Of a DNA stretch of 33,319 nucleotides, positions 4,371 through 11,162 are shown one piece after another. Made by a program: the position numbers and the translations under genes. Under the pieces are notes generated by a model. The model saw nothing but the letters and a program-made list of their open reading frames with translations, was not told the origin of the DNA and ran no database searches. The stretch lies in assembly GCA_027062285.1 (NCBI GenBank), contig JAMOTL010000062.1, positions 1 to 33,319 on the forward strand, read 5' to 3'. The number at the start of each line of letters is the position of its first letter. The first letter of the stretch is position 1. The stretch is from Nautiliaceae bacterium (lineage in GTDB: Bacteria > Campylobacterota > Campylobacteria > Campylobacterales > Nautiliaceae).

Positions 4371-4924
4371 TGAAAACGGTAAAAAAGCCTTATGCGGCTA
4401 CTATAGAAGTAAAAAAATCAAAGTTTCATTCATTTTTGCTTCCTTTTTCTTCCTTTGAAAAGACTCTTAATGACCTAAAAAAAAGACATCCGAAAGCTAA
4501 TCATTTCGTGACGGCATTTAGATATTTAAACGAGCATAATCAAATTGTAGAAGGTTCAAGTGACGACGGGGAACCCAGAGGCAGCAGCGGGAGGCCTACC
4601 CTTAAAGTTCTTCAAGGGCATAATTTAATAAATGTAGGTATAGTAACAATCAGGTACTTCGGAGGAATTCTTTTGGGCGTCGGAGGACTTGTAAAAGCTT
4701 ACAGCGACGCTGCGAACGCAGCAATAGAAAATGCCGAACTTATTGATTATGCTCCTGTGTTTGAGTATACTTTTGAAGTTGATTATAATAAAACAAGAGA
4801 AATCGAGTATTTATTAAAAAAATGGAATATTTATGTCGTTGATAGAGGATTTGGCGAAAGAGGTATTAAATATTTTATCAGAGACAATATTGAAAAAATT
4901 AATAAAATTAAGGAGATTTTATGA
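4370..4924 (+). CDS. yigZ: YigZ/IMPACT-family protein (UPF0029)
   Basis: 184 residues. N-terminal signatures are KKSKFHSFLLPF, NHFVTAFRY, and the SSDDGEPRGSSGRP loop followed by GHNLINVGIVTIRYFGGILLG and GVGGLVKAYSDAA, all typical of the YigZ/IMPACT fold. Family members are thought to be involved in translation or nucleic-acid binding, but the bacterial role is not settled. The C-terminal alpha-beta extension (about 130-184) is the usual second domain, shorter here than in E. coli. Start codon shared with the prs stop (TAATG), and its own stop overlaps the next ATG by four bases (ATGA), placing it mid-operon. Confidence 0.9.
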   Translation: MKTVKKPYAATIEVKKSKFHSFLLPFSSFEKTLNDLKKRHPKANHFVTAFRYLNEHNQIVEGSSDDGEPRGSSGRPTLKVLQGHNLINVGIVTIRYFGGILLGVGGLVKAYSDAANAAIENAELIDYAPVFEYTFEVDYNKTREIEYLLKKWNIYVVDRGFGERGIKYFIRDNIEKINKIKEIL

Positions 4925-5568
4925 AAAAGTTTTTAGCATTATTAATGATTTTAAGCAGTTTGGTATTTGCCGTATCTAAAGAAAATATTTTAGCATTAAG
5001 CTGGGAAAACAGCTATTGTAAAGTTCATCCTAAAGATAAAGCATGTCTTATGAGAAAACCCGGGGATTATTCATTGTCTCATTTCGTATTGCATGGATTG
5101 TGGCCGAAGAAGAAAAAATACTGTCATATCAATTATAAATTCCATCTCTCACCGCTTCTTTGGAAAGTACTTAAAAAGTATATGCCCGCAGCCGATTATC
5201 TGGCAAAACATGAATGGAAGAAGCACGGGACGTGTTTTGGGACGGATGCGGAGACATATTTTTTAACCGCGATAAAATTAACTCAACAATTTAATGAGTC
5301 TCATTTTTTAACTTTCGTAAGAATGCATATGGGGCAATATGTAACATTACAGAGATTAAGATTTGTATTCGGCAGTGCTTTTGGAGACAGAAACAGAAGA
5401 AAATTTCAAGTTATTTGTGAAAGAAAAAACGGTAATGTATATATAACTGAAATAAGACTGAATTTAAAAGGAGATCCTACGAAATTGGGTCTGAAAGAAT
5501 TATTGGATAACGCAGAACCTATGATAGGGGTAAAACAATGTCCGGGCGGAGTTTTCGCTCTCCCGTAA
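4921..5568 (+). CDS. Secreted ribonuclease, RNase T2 family
   Basis: 215 residues with a clear signal peptide (MKK then a hydrophobic run, cleavage probably after SLVFA at residue 17), so it acts in the periplasm or outside. Both catalytic segments of RNase T2 enzymes are present: CAS I FVLHGLWP with H58, and CAS II HEWKKHGTC with H97, E98, K101 and H102. Cysteines at 33, 42, 68 and 105 could form disulfides. The family cuts single-stranded RNA by 2',3'-cyclic phosphate chemistry. AAGGAG lies 5 bases before the ATG, within yigZ, and the overlap is ATGA. The following gene is convergent after 32 bases, with only a weak A/T hairpin near 5569-5592, so the termination signal is unclear. E. coli RNase I belongs to the same family, but I would not transfer the rna symbol. 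Confidence 0.9.
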   Translation: MKKFLALLMILSSLVFAVSKENILALSWENSYCKVHPKDKACLMRKPGDYSLSHFVLHGLWPKKKKYCHINYKFHLSPLLWKVLKKYMPAADYLAKHEWKKHGTCFGTDAETYFLTAIKLTQQFNESHFLTFVRMHMGQYVTLQRLRFVFGSAFGDRNRRKFQVICERKNGNVYITEIRLNLKGDPTKLGLKELLDNAEPMIGVKQCPGGVFALP

Positions 5569-5600: not shown

Positions 5601-6905
5601 TTAAAAAAATCCGTCATATATTTCTTTTGTCTGTTTTTTAACGGTTCTGTTAAATAATTTTCTCAAAACAAATTCTATGAAAAAGGCGATTATAAACGCT
5701 CCGATTAAATAATAAATAGTAGCAGTTTGATTTTTGAGATTATAATATAAACTTGCCGTAACTACCAATGACATCAACATAAACGCTAAGATGATTAAAA
5801 TTTTATTCGCCCCAGTTTTATGAGTTAATTTTATATGTTTATAATGGACTAAAGCCTGTATAATCAACACACTTAATGCCGCTACCGTTGTAATTTCACT
5901 TAAATTAAAAAATAATATCATAGGAATAATCAGAGCCGCTGAAATTAAAAGACCCTCATAAGAATTGAATATGTTATATTCGTAAATTTCAGGCAAATCA
6001 CCTTTTTTAGCAAGTGTATAGCTTATTTCCGTTGCTGCGTATAATGTTGCGTTTATGGCGCTTGTAGCCGAAATCAATGCCAAAATCGCCATAATTTTGA
6101 AGCCGTATTCTCCGAATATAGGTTTTGCAGCTTCTGCTAAAGCATAATCTTTTGTTTTAATTACTTCATCAAGAGATAAATTTCCCAATACGGCTATACT
6201 AACCGCAACATATAAAACTGTTACGACACTTATTGCTAAGATCATTGCTTTTAAAACGGTTTTTTTAGGGTTTTCCATATCTTCTATAGCATTTGTGATT
6301 ACGCTGTATCCCTGATAAGCAAAAAATGTCAGTCCGACAGCAAATATAGCATTTATTAACGTAGGAGATTTTTCAGGTGACAAATAATCTACATGTATGT
6401 TAAAAAGAGCTGCAAGAGTAAAAATGCTTAATCCTATAAGTTTAATCGCTACGATTATATTTTCGCTTTTTGCCACGAATGTAGCACCCAAAAGGTTGAT
6501 GACGGTAAAAAACAAAATTATACCTATTGCAAAAGTATTAATCATAAAAATCGAATCATACCCGAAAAGCCTTGCGCCGTATTCTCCGAAACTTTTAGCA
6601 ACGGCTGCGAGTGTAATAAGCTGTGCGAAATAAAACATAACACTAAGTGCACCTGAAAAATAATTTTCTCCGTATTCTTGGACAAGATATTCAATTATTC
6701 CTCCACGGCTTGGAAAACGTATAGCAAGTTTGGCTAAAGAATATCCGCTAAGAAGTGCTATTATTCCTCCTATAATAAAAGATAACCATACCAGATTACC
6801 GGCAATACTTCCCGCAAGACCTATTACAATGAAAATACCTATTCCAACCATCGTACCGATGCCGAGCATAGCGGCTGAGATGGTATCAAAGGCTTTTTTA
6901 TTCAT
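5601..6905 (-). CDS. APC-superfamily amino acid permease
   Basis: 434 residues with about twelve hydrophobic segments, the number expected for the APC superfamily. The first membrane segment carries the substrate-binding LGIGTMVGIGIF, the second is followed by RFPSRGGIIEYL, and FFAYQGYSVITNAIEDMENPKKT marks the segment 6 region and following loop. It should be an inner-membrane importer or exchanger of an amino acid or amine; the substrate cannot be read from the sequence. It is the last gene of the ispDF operon: its ATG overlaps the pgpA stop as TAATG. The ribosome site is poor (GGAA), consistent with reinitiation after pgpA. No link to its operon partners is obvious. Confidence 0.88.
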   Translation of the reverse strand: MNKKAFDTISAAMLGIGTMVGIGIFIVIGLAGSIAGNLVWLSFIIGGIIALLSGYSLAKLAIRFPSRGGIIEYLVQEYGENYFSGALSVMFYFAQLITLAAVAKSFGEYGARLFGYDSIFMINTFAIGIILFFTVINLLGATFVAKSENIIVAIKLIGLSIFTLAALFNIHVDYLSPEKSPTLINAIFAVGLTFFAYQGYSVITNAIEDMENPKKTVLKAMILAISVVTVLYVAVSIAVLGNLSLDEVIKTKDYALAEAAKPIFGEYGFKIMAILALISATSAINATLYAATEISYTLAKKGDLPEIYEYNIFNSYEGLLISAALIIPMILFFNLSEITTVAALSVLIIQALVHYKHIKLTHKTGANKILIILAFMLMSLVVTASLYYNLKNQTATIYYLIGAFIIAFFIEFVLRKLFNRTVKKQTKEIYDGFF

Positions 6906-7402
6906 TACATTCCAAGAAAATATTTAATTTTTAAATACACTATATAAAAAATTCCCGCCAATATTCCACCGAAAATTCCGGCTAAAGCGTCATCACCCAT
7001 TACTCCCAAGCCCCCTTTTAATTTTTTGTCAATTCTTCCGATAATTGAAGGCTTCCAAATATCTAAAATTCTAAATGCCAAAAACGCGAAAAGAAGTTTT
7101 ATAATCGTATCTTGTTTTAAATTACCCAGTATTCCTATTGTGATTAATACACCTGCTATTTCATCTATTACGATTCTTTTGTCGTCGTGTATACCGCCGT
7201 TTTTTTCATATTCTTCTACCATCTTATAGCCCATGACAAAAAATAAAAGCGCTAACATCAATATTGTCTGATTTGGGTTTGGGAAAAATTTAATTACCAA
7301 AAAAGCAATAACAACTCCTACTAAACTGCCCCATGTGCCTGGAGCTTTTGGTAAAAGCCCGCTGTAAAATCCGGTTAAGAAAAACCAATTAATTTTCTTC
7401 AT
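6905..7402 (-). CDS. pgpA: Phosphatidylglycerophosphatase A
   Basis: 165 residues from the ATG at 7402. PgpA removes the phosphate of phosphatidylglycerophosphate in the inner membrane to give phosphatidylglycerol. Seen: TGFYSGLLPKAPGTWGSL near the N-terminus, the DDKRIVIDEIAG segment, FRILDIWKPS, and GGLGVMGDDALAGI, which are the four conserved blocks of the family, separated by hydrophobic helices. A GTG two codons upstream (7408) is in frame but overlaps the best ribosome site, so ATG 7402 is preferred. The gene starts inside the phosphoribosyltransferase gene (14-base overlap) and shares TAATG with the permease. In Campylobacter jejuni pgpA (Cj1610) also neighbours the sulfurylase-like gene and the regulator. 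Confidence 0.93.
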   Translation of the reverse strand: MKKINWFFLTGFYSGLLPKAPGTWGSLVGVVIAFLVIKFFPNPNQTILMLALLFFVMGYKMVEEYEKNGGIHDDKRIVIDEIAGVLITIGILGNLKQDTIIKLLFAFLAFRILDIWKPSIIGRIDKKLKGGLGVMGDDALAGIFGGILAGIFYIVYLKIKYFLGM

Positions 7403-8051
7403 ATTCACTCCATAATAAATTTTTTTCTTTTAAATCATTAATAATTGCTAAAACTTCTTCATCTCTCAAATCATGAAAATCTTCATAAAAGCTTGCCACC
7501 GCAAAAGGTTTTTTATCATTTTCTATAAGACAATATACTTCGTCGAAGTATCTTTCAAGTAATTTTCTGGTATCGGTAGGACAAACTGGAGCCATGGCAA
7601 TTATTTTATCCGGATTTAATTTTTTTAAAAATTCATAAGCTGCAATAGCCGTGTAACCGCTTGCAAAGCCGTCATCCACCACTATTGCCGTTTTCCCTTC
7701 TAAAGATTTATAAGGGGCGTTTTTTCTGTATAAAAAGTCTCTTCTTTTTACTTCTTCCAAAACTTCCCTTGCTATCGTATCTATAGGAATTTGGGAAAAA
7801 AGATATTCAAAATTAGGATTTAATATAACTTTGCCGTCAATGGTTATGCTTCCGAAACCGGCTTCAGGGTTAAAAGGAATAGGGAGTTTTCTAACTACGA
7901 CAATATCAAAAGGAATTCTTTTACTGAGCGATATTGCGTATCCGATTGGAACTCCGCCTCTTGGTATCGCAAAAACTACACTGTTTTTTGGAATATCTAT
8001 AACTTCACTGAGTTTAATTCCTGCATCGAATCTATCTTTAAAAGGTGCCAT
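7389..8051 (-). CDS. Type I phosphoribosyltransferase-fold protein
   Basis: 220 residues. The PRPP-binding loop reads TAIVVDDGFASGYT (residues 121-134), and the N-terminal part has AIPRGGVPIGYAI (28-40) with VVVRKLPIPFNPEAGFGSI after it, as in the family of stand-alone phosphoribosyltransferase-like proteins of unknown substrate found next to, or fused to, hydrolases in other bacteria. The two adjacent acids (D126, D127) that bind ribose hydroxyls are intact, so PRPP or ribonucleotide binding is likely. The acceptor base is unknown. AAAGGA precedes the ATG by about 8 bases. It lies 10 bases after the sulfurylase-like gene and overlaps pgpA by 14, so it is an integral part of the ispDF operon. 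Confidence 0.85.
   Translation of the reverse strand: MAPFKDRFDAGIKLSEVIDIPKNSVVFAIPRGGVPIGYAISLSKRIPFDIVVVRKLPIPFNPEAGFGSITIDGKVILNPNFEYLFSQIPIDTIAREVLEEVKRRDFLYRKNAPYKSLEGKTAIVVDDGFASGYTAIAAYEFLKKLNPDKIIAMAPVCPTDTRKLLERYFDEVYCLIENDKKPFAVASFYEDFHDLRDEEVLAIINDLKEKNLLWSEYEEN
7408..7411 (-). promoter_or_regulatory. Ribosome binding site choosing the pgpA start
   Basis: On the minus strand GGAG is followed by TGAAT and then ATG at 7402, a 5-base spacing. The in-frame GTG at 7408 uses the last G of this site and cannot be served by it, so the ATG is the likelier start. Confidence 0.6.
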
Positions 8052-8061
8052 TTTTTTTCCT

Positions 8062-9237
8062 TTATGTAAGAGAACTTGTTTGATAAAGTTTCATTAAAGC
8101 GATATAAAAATCTTCATCCGAGCTTTCTTCTATAAGTCCCTTATTCGGAGATATATCATAATAAAGTTTTTGTAAGTTTTTGAATCTGTTAGGGAAAAGA
8201 TGAGCCAAATATTTTGCGCTTATTTCTTTTCTCATCAAAATAGTCGGAGGAATCAGTCCTGTTTTAATCAACTCAAAAATAGAATCGCTATGATAACTTA
8301 TATGATGATGACTTCCGTGAGGGCATGAATTTACGCTTACAATCGTTTTACATTTTTCACAATATACATATTCGTTTATCGTATCCACTTCAATATCTAA
8401 ATTCATACTGTCAAAAATACTTTTTATATGATTGGCTTCATAATGAATCCCGAGCCCTTTATGGGTTTGTCCCATTATAAATTTATTACACCCGAAATTT
8501 TTAGCAATCATTGCATCAAGAATAGCTTCATTAACTCCTGAGAAAATATAAGTATTAAGAAGCGGAACCACTAAAATTTTATCTTTTGGAAAATAATTGG
8601 TGATTACTTCATTTAAAGCATCGTATCTTAATTTGTATGGAACTTCTTCTTCTTGAATATTTTTTATTAGAAACACTATTAAAAGATCGTGTTTTTCAAT
8701 TGCCATTCTCATTATTCTTTCATGCACTCTGTGAATAGGTTTTGCGTGCATGGTCATACCTATTATTGAAGTTAGGTTTTTTGTTTTTTCTCTTACAAAG
8801 TCCACTCTTTTTTTTATTCCGGTATCTTCTACCCAAAAGTCACCGGCAATTGCGTATTTTCCAAGTCTTTTAAGCGTTTTTGCAACTTGAGGATAATTTT
8901 GGGCGTCGGTGGTTCCGTAAATATTTTTTACCCTCTCAATCGGGTCTATTTCGTAAATTTCTTCTACATTTACTTCGCCGACTTTTTTATCTTCACAAAA
9001 AAGATCGATTTTTTTCGGATTTGATTTTAAAATTTCTTCGTTTTTTTTACCTGCAGGGGCTAAAATAAAAGAAAACGGAACGGATTGATCTTTATATTTT
9101 TTTTCTTTATCGGCTGTTTTGGCCTCTTTTGAATTCATTAATTTATCAAAAGGTTTCAAAAGACCGGCTTGGACCATAGCAAGAGTAATCCATGCTTCTT
9201 TATCTATAAAGATTTTATTTTTGTTTAAAGATTCCAT
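8062..9237 (-). CDS. Divergent ATP-sulfurylase (sulfate adenylyltransferase) family protein
   Basis: 391 residues with the full domain order of ATP sulfurylases: an N-terminal PUA-like domain (to about 145), the catalytic nucleotidyltransferase domain, and a C-terminal C-x2-C...CPH element (C293, C296, C305). The H-x2-H nucleotide motif is kept (H169, H172), but the preceding sulfate-binding Q-x-R-N is replaced by M-H-A-K (163-166) and the usual GRDHAG reads GQTHKG (256-261). The GT-x2-R motif near residue 318 is also missing. ATP binding is therefore plausible, but sulfate activation is doubtful. Related genes sit in the same place in Campylobacter (Cj1609, annotated sulfate adenylyltransferase). 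No APS reductase or kinase gene is in the window. Overlaps the regulator gene by 23 bases, with AAGGA before ATG 9237. I give no symbol because the reaction is uncertain. Confidence 0.8.
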   Translation of the reverse strand: MESLNKNKIFIDKEAWITLAMVQAGLLKPFDKLMNSKEAKTADKEKKYKDQSVPFSFILAPAGKKNEEILKSNPKKIDLFCEDKKVGEVNVEEIYEIDPIERVKNIYGTTDAQNYPQVAKTLKRLGKYAIAGDFWVEDTGIKKRVDFVREKTKNLTSIIGMTMHAKPIHRVHERIMRMAIEKHDLLIVFLIKNIQEEEVPYKLRYDALNEVITNYFPKDKILVVPLLNTYIFSGVNEAILDAMIAKNFGCNKFIMGQTHKGLGIHYEANHIKSIFDSMNLDIEVDTINEYVYCEKCKTIVSVNSCPHGSHHHISYHSDSIFELIKTGLIPPTILMRKEISAKYLAHLFPNRFKNLQKLYYDISPNKGLIEESSDEDFYIALMKLYQTSSLT

Positions 9238-10072
9238 ATTTTTTCCTTTTTTCCCATAAACTTTTTCTGCTTATTCCAAGTTTTTTACTAAGTTCCGTAT
9301 CAGGAAATTTATGCTGATGGGTTTTTATAATGAATTTTATATATTCCTCTATACTTAATATTTCTTCGTCAAAAAAGTTTTTGGCATTAGCTTCTATTTC
9401 TAAAAATTTGTCAATTTTATCGTAATTCTTAGGAAGAAGTATGATTGATTTATATTTTGAGATATAGGTCAGTATATTTTCATCTTCAACTTTTTCGTAG
9501 TTCAGACAAAAATATATTTTGTTTTGGTCTTTAAATTTTTTTTTGTCGAATTTAGTTAAATCTATTATTTCTATAAGGGCATGTTGTTCTTTAGCTACTT
9601 CATATATAAATTTTTCAACTGTTTTAGAAGGAGTTGATTTTATAAAAACAGGAAAATTATACTTAGGTAGTTTTAGTTCTATATCTTTTAAAATAAAGTC
9701 GATAAAAGCTTCCAGTTTTTTTACTTTATCTTTGAGTTTATAATATTCTTGATAATGTTTTATTTTTCTAATAAGTTCTTCAATAGTGAAAGGTTTTTGT
9801 AAATAATCGTCCGCTCCTATATTGATAGGGTGGGTAACATTTGAATAAGTTACGTATGGAACCAAAAGAATAATGATTTTATCTTTTTTTTCTCTAATAA
9901 AATTATCGATATTTCCCTGAAGATTGGTGTTAACAATAAAAACATCGGCGTCTTTATCCATAACCTCGTTATATGAACCGTAAATTTCGCAGTTTGCTTT
10001 TAATTTTTCGCTAAGGTTGTTTTGAATGCTTTGTGCCAAGTAGAGTTCATTTTCTACTATTATAATGTTCAT
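9215..10072 (-). CDS. Atypical orphan response regulator, HP1021/CemR type
   Basis: 285 residues. Residues 1-115 are a receiver domain by pattern, ending in the conserved K94-P-F, but the phospho-accepting Asp is Asn (N48 in FIVNTNLQG), one of the metal-binding acidic pair is N8, and the Thr/Ser switch position is Val, so it is unlikely to be phosphorylated. The middle part has no Walker A or sigma-54 contact motif. Residues about 258-282 form a Fis/NtrC-type helix-turn-helix (ELSKKLGISRKSLW). Only two cysteines are present (C28 and one near 188). Position after ispDF matches Helicobacter pylori HP1020-HP1021 and Campylobacter Cj1607-Cj1608 (CemR), orphan regulators linked to redox and energy metabolism; HP1021 also binds oriC. 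Orthology is inferred from architecture and synteny. No histidine kinase is nearby. Confidence 0.82.
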   Translation of the reverse strand: MNIIIVENELYLAQSIQNNLSEKLKANCEIYGSYNEVMDKDADVFIVNTNLQGNIDNFIREKKDKIIILLVPYVTYSNVTHPINIGADDYLQKPFTIEELIRKIKHYQEYYKLKDKVKKLEAFIDFILKDIELKLPKYNFPVFIKSTPSKTVEKFIYEVAKEQHALIEIIDLTKFDKKKFKDQNKIYFCLNYEKVEDENILTYISKYKSIILLPKNYDKIDKFLEIEANAKNFFDEEILSIEEYIKFIIKTHQHKFPDTELSKKLGISRKSLWEKRKKYGIFKQK

Positions 10073-11162
10073 GCCAGTCCTTGTATGTTAGATTTGCGTT
10101 TGAGATTACGGCAATACCTTCACCTCTTCCTATAAATCCCATTTTTTCGTTTGTGGTAGCTTTTACGTTTACAGGTGCTTTTAAAATATTGCTGAGGTTT
10201 CTTTGGATTTTAGTTTTATATTTTTTTAGTTTCGGTTTTTCTGCTATTATGGAAATATCGGCGTTTATGATTTCATATCCGGTGCTATTAAGCGTAGAAA
10301 TGATTTCTTCAAGCAGTTTGACACTTGATGCGTTTTTATATTTTTCATCGGTATCCGGGAAAAATTCTCCGATATCTCCAAACCCGGCAGCTCCTAAAAG
10401 TGCGTCAATCAGACTGTGAATTACCACATCTCCGTCACTGTGGGCTTTTAATCCATAATCTGAATCTATTTCCACTCCTCCTAATATCATTTTTTTATTT
10501 TTTTCAAAAGCATGTGTGTCATAGCCGTTTCCTGTTAAAAAAACTTTTTTAGGAGGTGTTAGACACGGAAGGTCCAAATCTTCAAAATAGGTGATTTTTT
10601 TTGAAAGTTTTGAGCCTGGAATATATTTAATTTCACCTCCCAAAGCTTCAATAGCAGCTCTTTCATCGGTAAAAAGTTTATCGGTGTTTAGGGCTTTTTT
10701 TAAAATTTCAGTGCGGCTAAGCTGTGGGGTTTGAATAAGTTTTACTTTCTCTCTGTCAATTGTTTTATTTTCATAAACGATTGTATCTACGGGCTTTAAG
10801 AAAGGTACGGTGCAGTCTGCCGGGTTATTTAAAAGATTTAAAACCACTTCTTTTGGAACGCATGCTCTTGCTACGTCTGTAACCATCACATATTCGGTAT
10901 TAACGTATTCAAGAGCGTTTTTTAAACTGAGCTGTCTTTCTTTATCGCCGGGTATTATTGTATAATCGCTTGATTTTTCGTATAATCTTACTTCTTTTGG
11001 ATTTGCCGTAATTATAGTCTTTTTAAAATCAAAAAACTCGTTTATTTTATCGGCGACAAACTGCCATAAAGGCTTATTTCCGATTCTAATCCACTGTTTT
11101 TTTACTTCATAGCCGAATCTGGTGGAATTTCCGGCACTAAGTACTATTAAAGTCACATCCAA
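10047..11162 (-). CDS. ispDF: Bifunctional IspD/IspF of the MEP isoprenoid pathway
   Basis: 371 residues, a fusion typical of Campylobacterota. Residues 1-200 are IspD (CDP-ME synthase) with LSAGNSTRFG at 8-17, KKQWIRIGNKPLW, VTDVARACV and the QTPQ strand. Residues about 206-360 are IspF (ME-cPP synthase) with the metal ligands in GYDTHAF (D214, H216) and KAHSDGDVVIH (H241), and ATTNEKMGFIGRGEG. The two non-consecutive steps around IspE are thus on one chain. The start is TTG 11162, 6 bases after AAGGA; an in-frame GTG at 11156 is less well placed. First gene of the minus-strand operon, overlapping the regulator by 26 bases. Confidence 0.95.
   Translation of the reverse strand: MDVTLIVLSAGNSTRFGYEVKKQWIRIGNKPLWQFVADKINEFFDFKKTIITANPKEVRLYEKSSDYTIIPGDKERQLSLKNALEYVNTEYVMVTDVARACVPKEVVLNLLNNPADCTVPFLKPVDTIVYENKTIDREKVKLIQTPQLSRTEILKKALNTDKLFTDERAAIEALGGEIKYIPGSKLSKKITYFEDLDLPCLTPPKKVFLTGNGYDTHAFEKNKKMILGGVEIDSDYGLKAHSDGDVVIHSLIDALLGAAGFGDIGEFFPDTDEKYKNASSVKLLEEIISTLNSTGYEIINADISIIAEKPKLKKYKTKIQRNLSNILKAPVNVKATTNEKMGFIGRGEGIAVISNANLTYKDWHEHYNSRK

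Follow-up and report, generated by a model that had tools for sequence, protein, structure and literature searches.

An ATP-sulfurylase-fold protein of the Campylobacterota that lacks the sulfate-holding residues and is encoded next to cemR

The 33,319-nt stretch of Nautiliaceae DNA analysed here (the window) carries the genes of the ispDF-cemR-satL-pgpA operon (Table 1). We use the name SatL for the Campylobacterota Sat-like protein of the window type. The satL gene is read in one frame from an ATG start and encodes 391 amino acids. In a profile search, SatL matched PF01747 above the gathering cut-off (E 2.6e-51; 174.5 bits against 24.3) and PUA_2 with an E-value of 4.8e-12. On two NCBIfam models of genuine sulfate adenylyltransferases it stayed far below the cut-off, with 129.1 bits against 322.95 for TIGR00339 and 163 against 387 for NF003166 (PRK04149). 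An AlphaFold2 model built with 38 relatives as input reached a mean pLDDT of 86.8 and a pTM of 0.84, and its top Foldseek matches were all ATP sulfurylases (8a8d, 1v47 and 1jhd; TM 0.73-0.84). The PUA-like N-terminal domain and the Sat fold were thus found in the window protein by profile, model and structure search, in agreement with the fold and domain order that an earlier sequence-only reading of this DNA had assigned. No other PF01747 gene occurs in the window genome. In one genus (L233, L234), SatL is 274-275 aa long, having lost the N-terminal PUA-like domain and kept the remainder; the short L233 protein also shows a weak match to citrate lyase ligase (Citrate_ly_lig, Pfam, E 6e-5).

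Table 1 Features of the satL locus in the window and the evidence for each.
Feature	Coordinates	Strand	Evidence
ispDF, first gene of the operon	10047..11162	-	YgbB E 4e-60, IspD E 1e-26; conserved position
cemR, atypical response regulator (HP1021/Cj1608/Abu0127 type)	9215..10072	-	Weak receiver and Fis-type HTH matches
Overlap of cemR end and satL start, 23 nt	9215..9237	-	31/35 loci with both genes adjacent
satL, ATP-sulfurylase-fold protein, 391 aa	8062..9237	-	PF01747, PUA_2, AlphaFold2 and Foldseek
MHAK in place of QxRN, residues 163-166	8740..8751	-	Alignment with canonical Sats
HRVH, kept HxxH nucleotidyltransferase element, residues 169-172	8722..8733	-	157 SatL
GQTHKG in place of GRDHAG, residues 256-261	8455..8472	-	157 SatL
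CxxC...CPH Zn-type element, residues 293-307	8317..8361	-	Aligned to 8a8d, 1v47
HHH, family-specific histidine cluster, residues 310-312	8302..8310	-	157 SatL and canonical Sat alignment
YHSDSIF in place of ISGTxxR, residues 315-321	8275..8295	-	Alignment with canonical Sats and 157 SatL
C-terminal extension (R351, G367, F377-Y378, YQTxSLT), residues 346-391	8065..8202	-	Absent in canonical Sats aligned
Phosphoribosyltransferase, local operon insertion	7389..8051	-	Pribosyltran E 1.6e-10
pgpA, ancestral downstream neighbour of satL	6905..7408	-	PgpA E 1.2e-37; downstream of satL in most loci

The order ispDF-cemR-satL-pgpA was found at most loci and in nearly all Campylobacterota families sampled, which confirms and extends the previous remark that the gene order is shared with Campylobacter. 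The place of cemR in the window matches the Cj1607-Cj1608-Cj1609 order, and from gene order, family and single-copy status we infer that the window satL is the orthologue of Campylobacter jejuni Cj1609. As neighbours of satL, an atypical regulator and a phosphoribosyltransferase had been named earlier. The former is cemR, but the latter is a local and uninformative insertion that separates satL from pgpA in just two of the loci examined, the window and L032, and the conserved neighbour on that side is pgpA. A ribonuclease T2 family gene also lies in the window (4921-5568) and is retained in related Nautiliaceae loci (L032-L034).

Across families, the overlapping nucleotides of cemR and satL are read in different frames. 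The overlap is exactly 23 nt in 31 of the 35 adjacent pairs because the satL ATG sits within the TAT-G of the cemR codons for KKY[G/D/E], which are constrained by the satL start. In one family (f6), the Tyr of the CemR KKY is replaced by Leu or Phe at loci that satL has left, either by loss or by relocation (L187-L191). In two loci of this family (L057:6301-7479 and L058:6599-7774), satL lies outside the cemR operon, head-to-head with queH and followed by a small lipoprotein-like gene. A link between SatL and QueH was rejected, given that nearly every genome of the panel has QueH, whether or not it has SatL. The window genome (111 contigs) itself has no QueH and only one CTP_transf_like (PF01467) gene, while relatives have both, and assembly incompleteness is the probable reason. 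A search for a replacement gene at the satL-less loci yielded no candidate: mostly ispDF-cemR-pgpA had closed up, and otherwise no common gene followed cemR. The CemR proteins of the satL-less L195-L198, L187, L189, L190 and L193 contain 4-6 cysteines, compared with a median of about 2 for those with an adjacent satL (L032-L068); L192 (1) and L194 (2) are satL-less exceptions, and the lineages are few and related.

We counted residue changes over a set of 157 distinct SatL proteins. None of them has the Gln (163) or the Arg (165) of QxRN. The MHAK replacement had been read correctly in the window, and the loss of Gln and Arg holds for the whole family, but Lys 166 does not: at this Asn position, on the ATP side, Asn is found in 64 and Lys, as in the window, in 54 of the 157. 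Similarly, the change of GRDHAG to GQTHKG is right for the window, and its Asp is missing from every sequence (Arg is kept in 15/157), but the Lys of THKG is not a family trait, as most members have G[QK]NHAG; the GxxHxG frame is largely retained. GTxxR had been described as gone, and this was borne out, with mainly Asp or Glu at the Thr position and Arg at the Arg position in only 9/157. The Gln and the two Arg residues missing from SatL are those that hold sulfate in ATP sulfurylases. Regarding the HxxH element, which had been taken as kept, the second His (H172) is present in 155/157, but the first (H169), although present in the window, is not universal (127 sequences have His, 26 have Asn and 4 have Thr). 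Judged from these alignments, the loss of the sulfate ligands is family-wide and old. The sequence-only reading had also named ligands supplied from other positions as evidence that would refute it. The original Gln and Arg are indeed gone, but R204, which is new and nearly invariant (Arg in 145/157 and Lys in 10/157), could in principle serve as a substitute anion ligand.

The strongest conservation in SatL was found further downstream. C293, C296, C305 and H307 of the Zn-type element, which is common to Thermus- and Methanothermococcus-type Sats, are each present in 157/157, so the cysteine element noticed earlier is kept without exception. The histidine cluster that follows is almost as constant (H310 in 157/157, H311 in 155/157 and H312 in 150/157), and the resulting CPHGxHHH element is nearly invariant in SatL and missing from the canonical Sats aligned. 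The C-terminal tail of about 45 residues is also nearly invariant, and G308, Y315, R336, R351, F377 and Y378 are further invariant or near-invariant residues among the 157 sequences. SatL is under strong purifying selection, with a median dN/dS of 0.05 over those of 40 close pairs that had a usable dS.

A PF01747 protein was found in 306 of the 397 Campylobacterota genomes sampled, almost always as a single copy; in about 305 of the 397 SatL is present, nearly always as the only Sat-family gene. One genome (G122) has a canonical Sat alone, without SatL, and five Campylobacter-type genomes have both, while satL is absent outright from Helicobacter-like genera and some others. A maximum-likelihood tree placed 38 SatL proteins at one end of a very long branch (support 100/100) and 11 canonical Sats, the Campylobacterota ones among them, at the other. 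A scan of genome contigs returned 526 relatives, of which the best 80 all carried Campylobacterota labels. In a plasmid scan, all matches outside this phylum were at 24-35% identity, and those that have an annotation are called sulfate adenylyltransferase; viral contigs contained no relatives. These sequence comparisons are best explained if SatL branched off from ATP sulfurylase long ago and has been passed on vertically within the Campylobacterota.

We also examined the genes that would use adenosine 5'-phosphosulfate (APS). None had been seen near satL, and searches of the whole window genome for CysD, CysH and APS kinase (CysC) likewise gave none: with PF01507 nothing exceeded the cut-off, and with PF01583 there were two matches that just reached it, both P-loop look-alikes and one of them the Mrp encoded in the window. 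CysD, CysH and CysC are missing from many other SatL genomes too, and several relatives that reduce sulfate for assimilation have CysD/CysH on top of SatL. The canonical Sats of Campylobacterota adjoin an APS-kinase gene, and plasmid-borne Sats elsewhere often adjoin PAPS reductase, cysC or sulfite reductase. In L069:5578-8115 and L071:5550-8090, a canonical Sat is the middle gene of three, preceded by an APS-kinase-like gene and followed by one that encodes 321 aa; the latter may correspond to a capsule gene of C. jejuni ICDCCJ07001 that is listed as 'pyruvate kinase barrel', and the set possibly serves capsule sulfation or another modification. Campylobacter canonical Sats are apparently located in capsule loci (compare PMC2993937).

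The Cj1609 orthologue has been reported as essential by TraDIS in C. jejuni and C. coli (PMC10077673), though some of the Campylobacter species tested did not show this, and the call may partly reflect polar effects on pgpA. C. jejuni does not grow on sulfate. In the passaged, aerotolerant C. coli OR12, A290V in 'sat' is one among several mutations (PMC5366326, Table 2). A position about 52 kb off nhaA1 suggests that this 'sat' is the SatL gene, in which case the mutation would fit a link to oxygen; the related SatLs checked have a residue other than Ala at position 290.

Taken together, SatL very probably does a job other than sulfate activation. The earlier view that a different acceptor or a sensor role is likelier gains support from the family-wide pocket loss, the deep and fully supported clade and the missing CysD, CysH and APS kinase. 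Leaning only slightly in its favour, we prefer to see SatL as a diverged ATP-dependent nucleotidyltransferase that is translated together with CemR and acts on an acceptor other than sulfate. The PUA-like and nucleotidyltransferase fold and the ATP-handling HxxH element would have been retained, and ATP binding most likely persists. The anion pocket of Gln, Arg and Arg would have become a less charged and probably larger cavity, and the residues past the Zn knuckle would have been rebuilt into the conserved His-rich element and the new C-terminal tail. AMP from ATP would then be transferred to a larger acceptor with release of PPi, for example to a macromolecule or to a metabolite that carries a carboxylate or phosphate group. 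Such adenylyl transfer fits best because HxxH and the nucleotide-binding loops are kept while the anion pocket is gutted. Against it stand the outright loss of SatL in Helicobacter-like and some other genera, by which the reaction is not universally needed, and the limits of the essentiality call. Two further findings speak against a nucleotidyltransferase: 30/157 have Asn or Thr for H169, so that a strictly catalytic view loses weight, and the residues with the highest conservation are those of the Zn/His element and of the tail rather than those of the nucleotide site.

The last two findings would suit a non- or barely catalytic nucleotide or metal sensor that works with CemR and brings information on ATP, redox or metal status into energy-metabolism control, a role that we consider possible, though on the unlikely side. 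The conserved overlap with cemR favours it too, as does the fact that CemR controls energy conversion by a signal perception described as enigmatic (PMC11334517). The tendency towards a higher cysteine number in CemR where satL is truly missing also fits, but this trend comes from few and related lineages. Moreover, CemR is retained where SatL was lost, and SatL was relocated away from CemR in one family. CemR deletion mutants are viable, with slower growth; given the essentiality reported for Cj1609, serving CemR cannot be all that SatL does. That SatL targets RNA or protein, either as an adenylyltransferase or as a metalloprotein, and uses its PUA-like domain as a platform for binding is in our judgement improbable. 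The PUA_2 match, the conserved basic R204 and R351, and the relocation of satL beside queH in one family agree with this idea, but PUA_2 is ancestral in Sat, the PUA-like domain is missing in one genus, and the nearly universal QueH does not track SatL. Very improbable indeed is what published annotations assume, namely a sulfate adenylyltransferase, here with replaced ligands such as R204. Fold and family are the same and R204 is new and nearly invariant, but the QxRN Gln and Arg and the GRDHAG Asp are missing without exception, many SatL genomes have no APS or PAPS users, and CysD/CysH are additionally present where sulfate is reduced. The most far-reaching proposal would be a new enzyme or sensor family derived from ATP sulfurylase, which lost the sulfate pocket, gained a His-rich metal-type element, acts on an unrecognised acceptor and, translationally coupled to CemR, links ATP or redox status to energy-metabolism control across the Campylobacterota. 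As a whole, this proposal is rather improbable.

The published annotations of SatL as sulfate adenylyltransferase are probably wrong, and it seems that a strongly conserved core protein of a phylum that includes the food-borne pathogen C. jejuni has wrongly been given the name of an enzyme of sulfur assimilation. Published metabolic reconstructions rely on this annotation. In one article, the Sulfurimonas 'Sat-type ATPS' is assigned to assimilation (PMC4584964). In another, the lone sat gene of an epsilonproteobacterium from a sulfidic aquifer is called 'conspicuous' and is treated as puzzling (PMC4674564). In neither of these passages is the pocket mentioned. Such a lone gene is explained if SatL is not a sulfate activator. 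We found no description of the pocket loss in Cj1609 or in the Sulfurimonas protein in the literature searched. SatL is a reportedly essential gene product with clear, testable motifs.

Among known systems, ATP sulfurylase (Sat, EC 2.7.7.4; 8a8d of Methanothermococcus and 1v47 of Thermus with APS) shares with SatL the domain order, HxxH, the Zn-type CxxC...CxH element and the fold. SatL differs from it in having QxRN, GRDHAG and GTxxR rewritten, in carrying CPHGxHHH and the C-terminal tail, and in being without APS-using partners. The HIGH-type nucleotidyltransferases (CoaD, NadD/NadM and CitC) have the Rossmann-like core fold and HxxH in common with SatL, and CoaD is a weak Foldseek match to the model (E 2e-5). 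Displacement of a known nucleotidyltransferase by SatL was considered and rejected: the CoaD, NadD and HldE types are separate families, whose own PF01467 genes occur in most SatL genomes searched, with or without SatL, and because they are present independently, SatL does not appear to replace them. Also close are Cj1609 and the Sulfurimonas 'Sat-type ATPS', which belong to the same family, occupy the same place after ispDF and cemR, appear to be orthologues by gene order and single-copy status, and are called sulfate adenylyltransferase in print.
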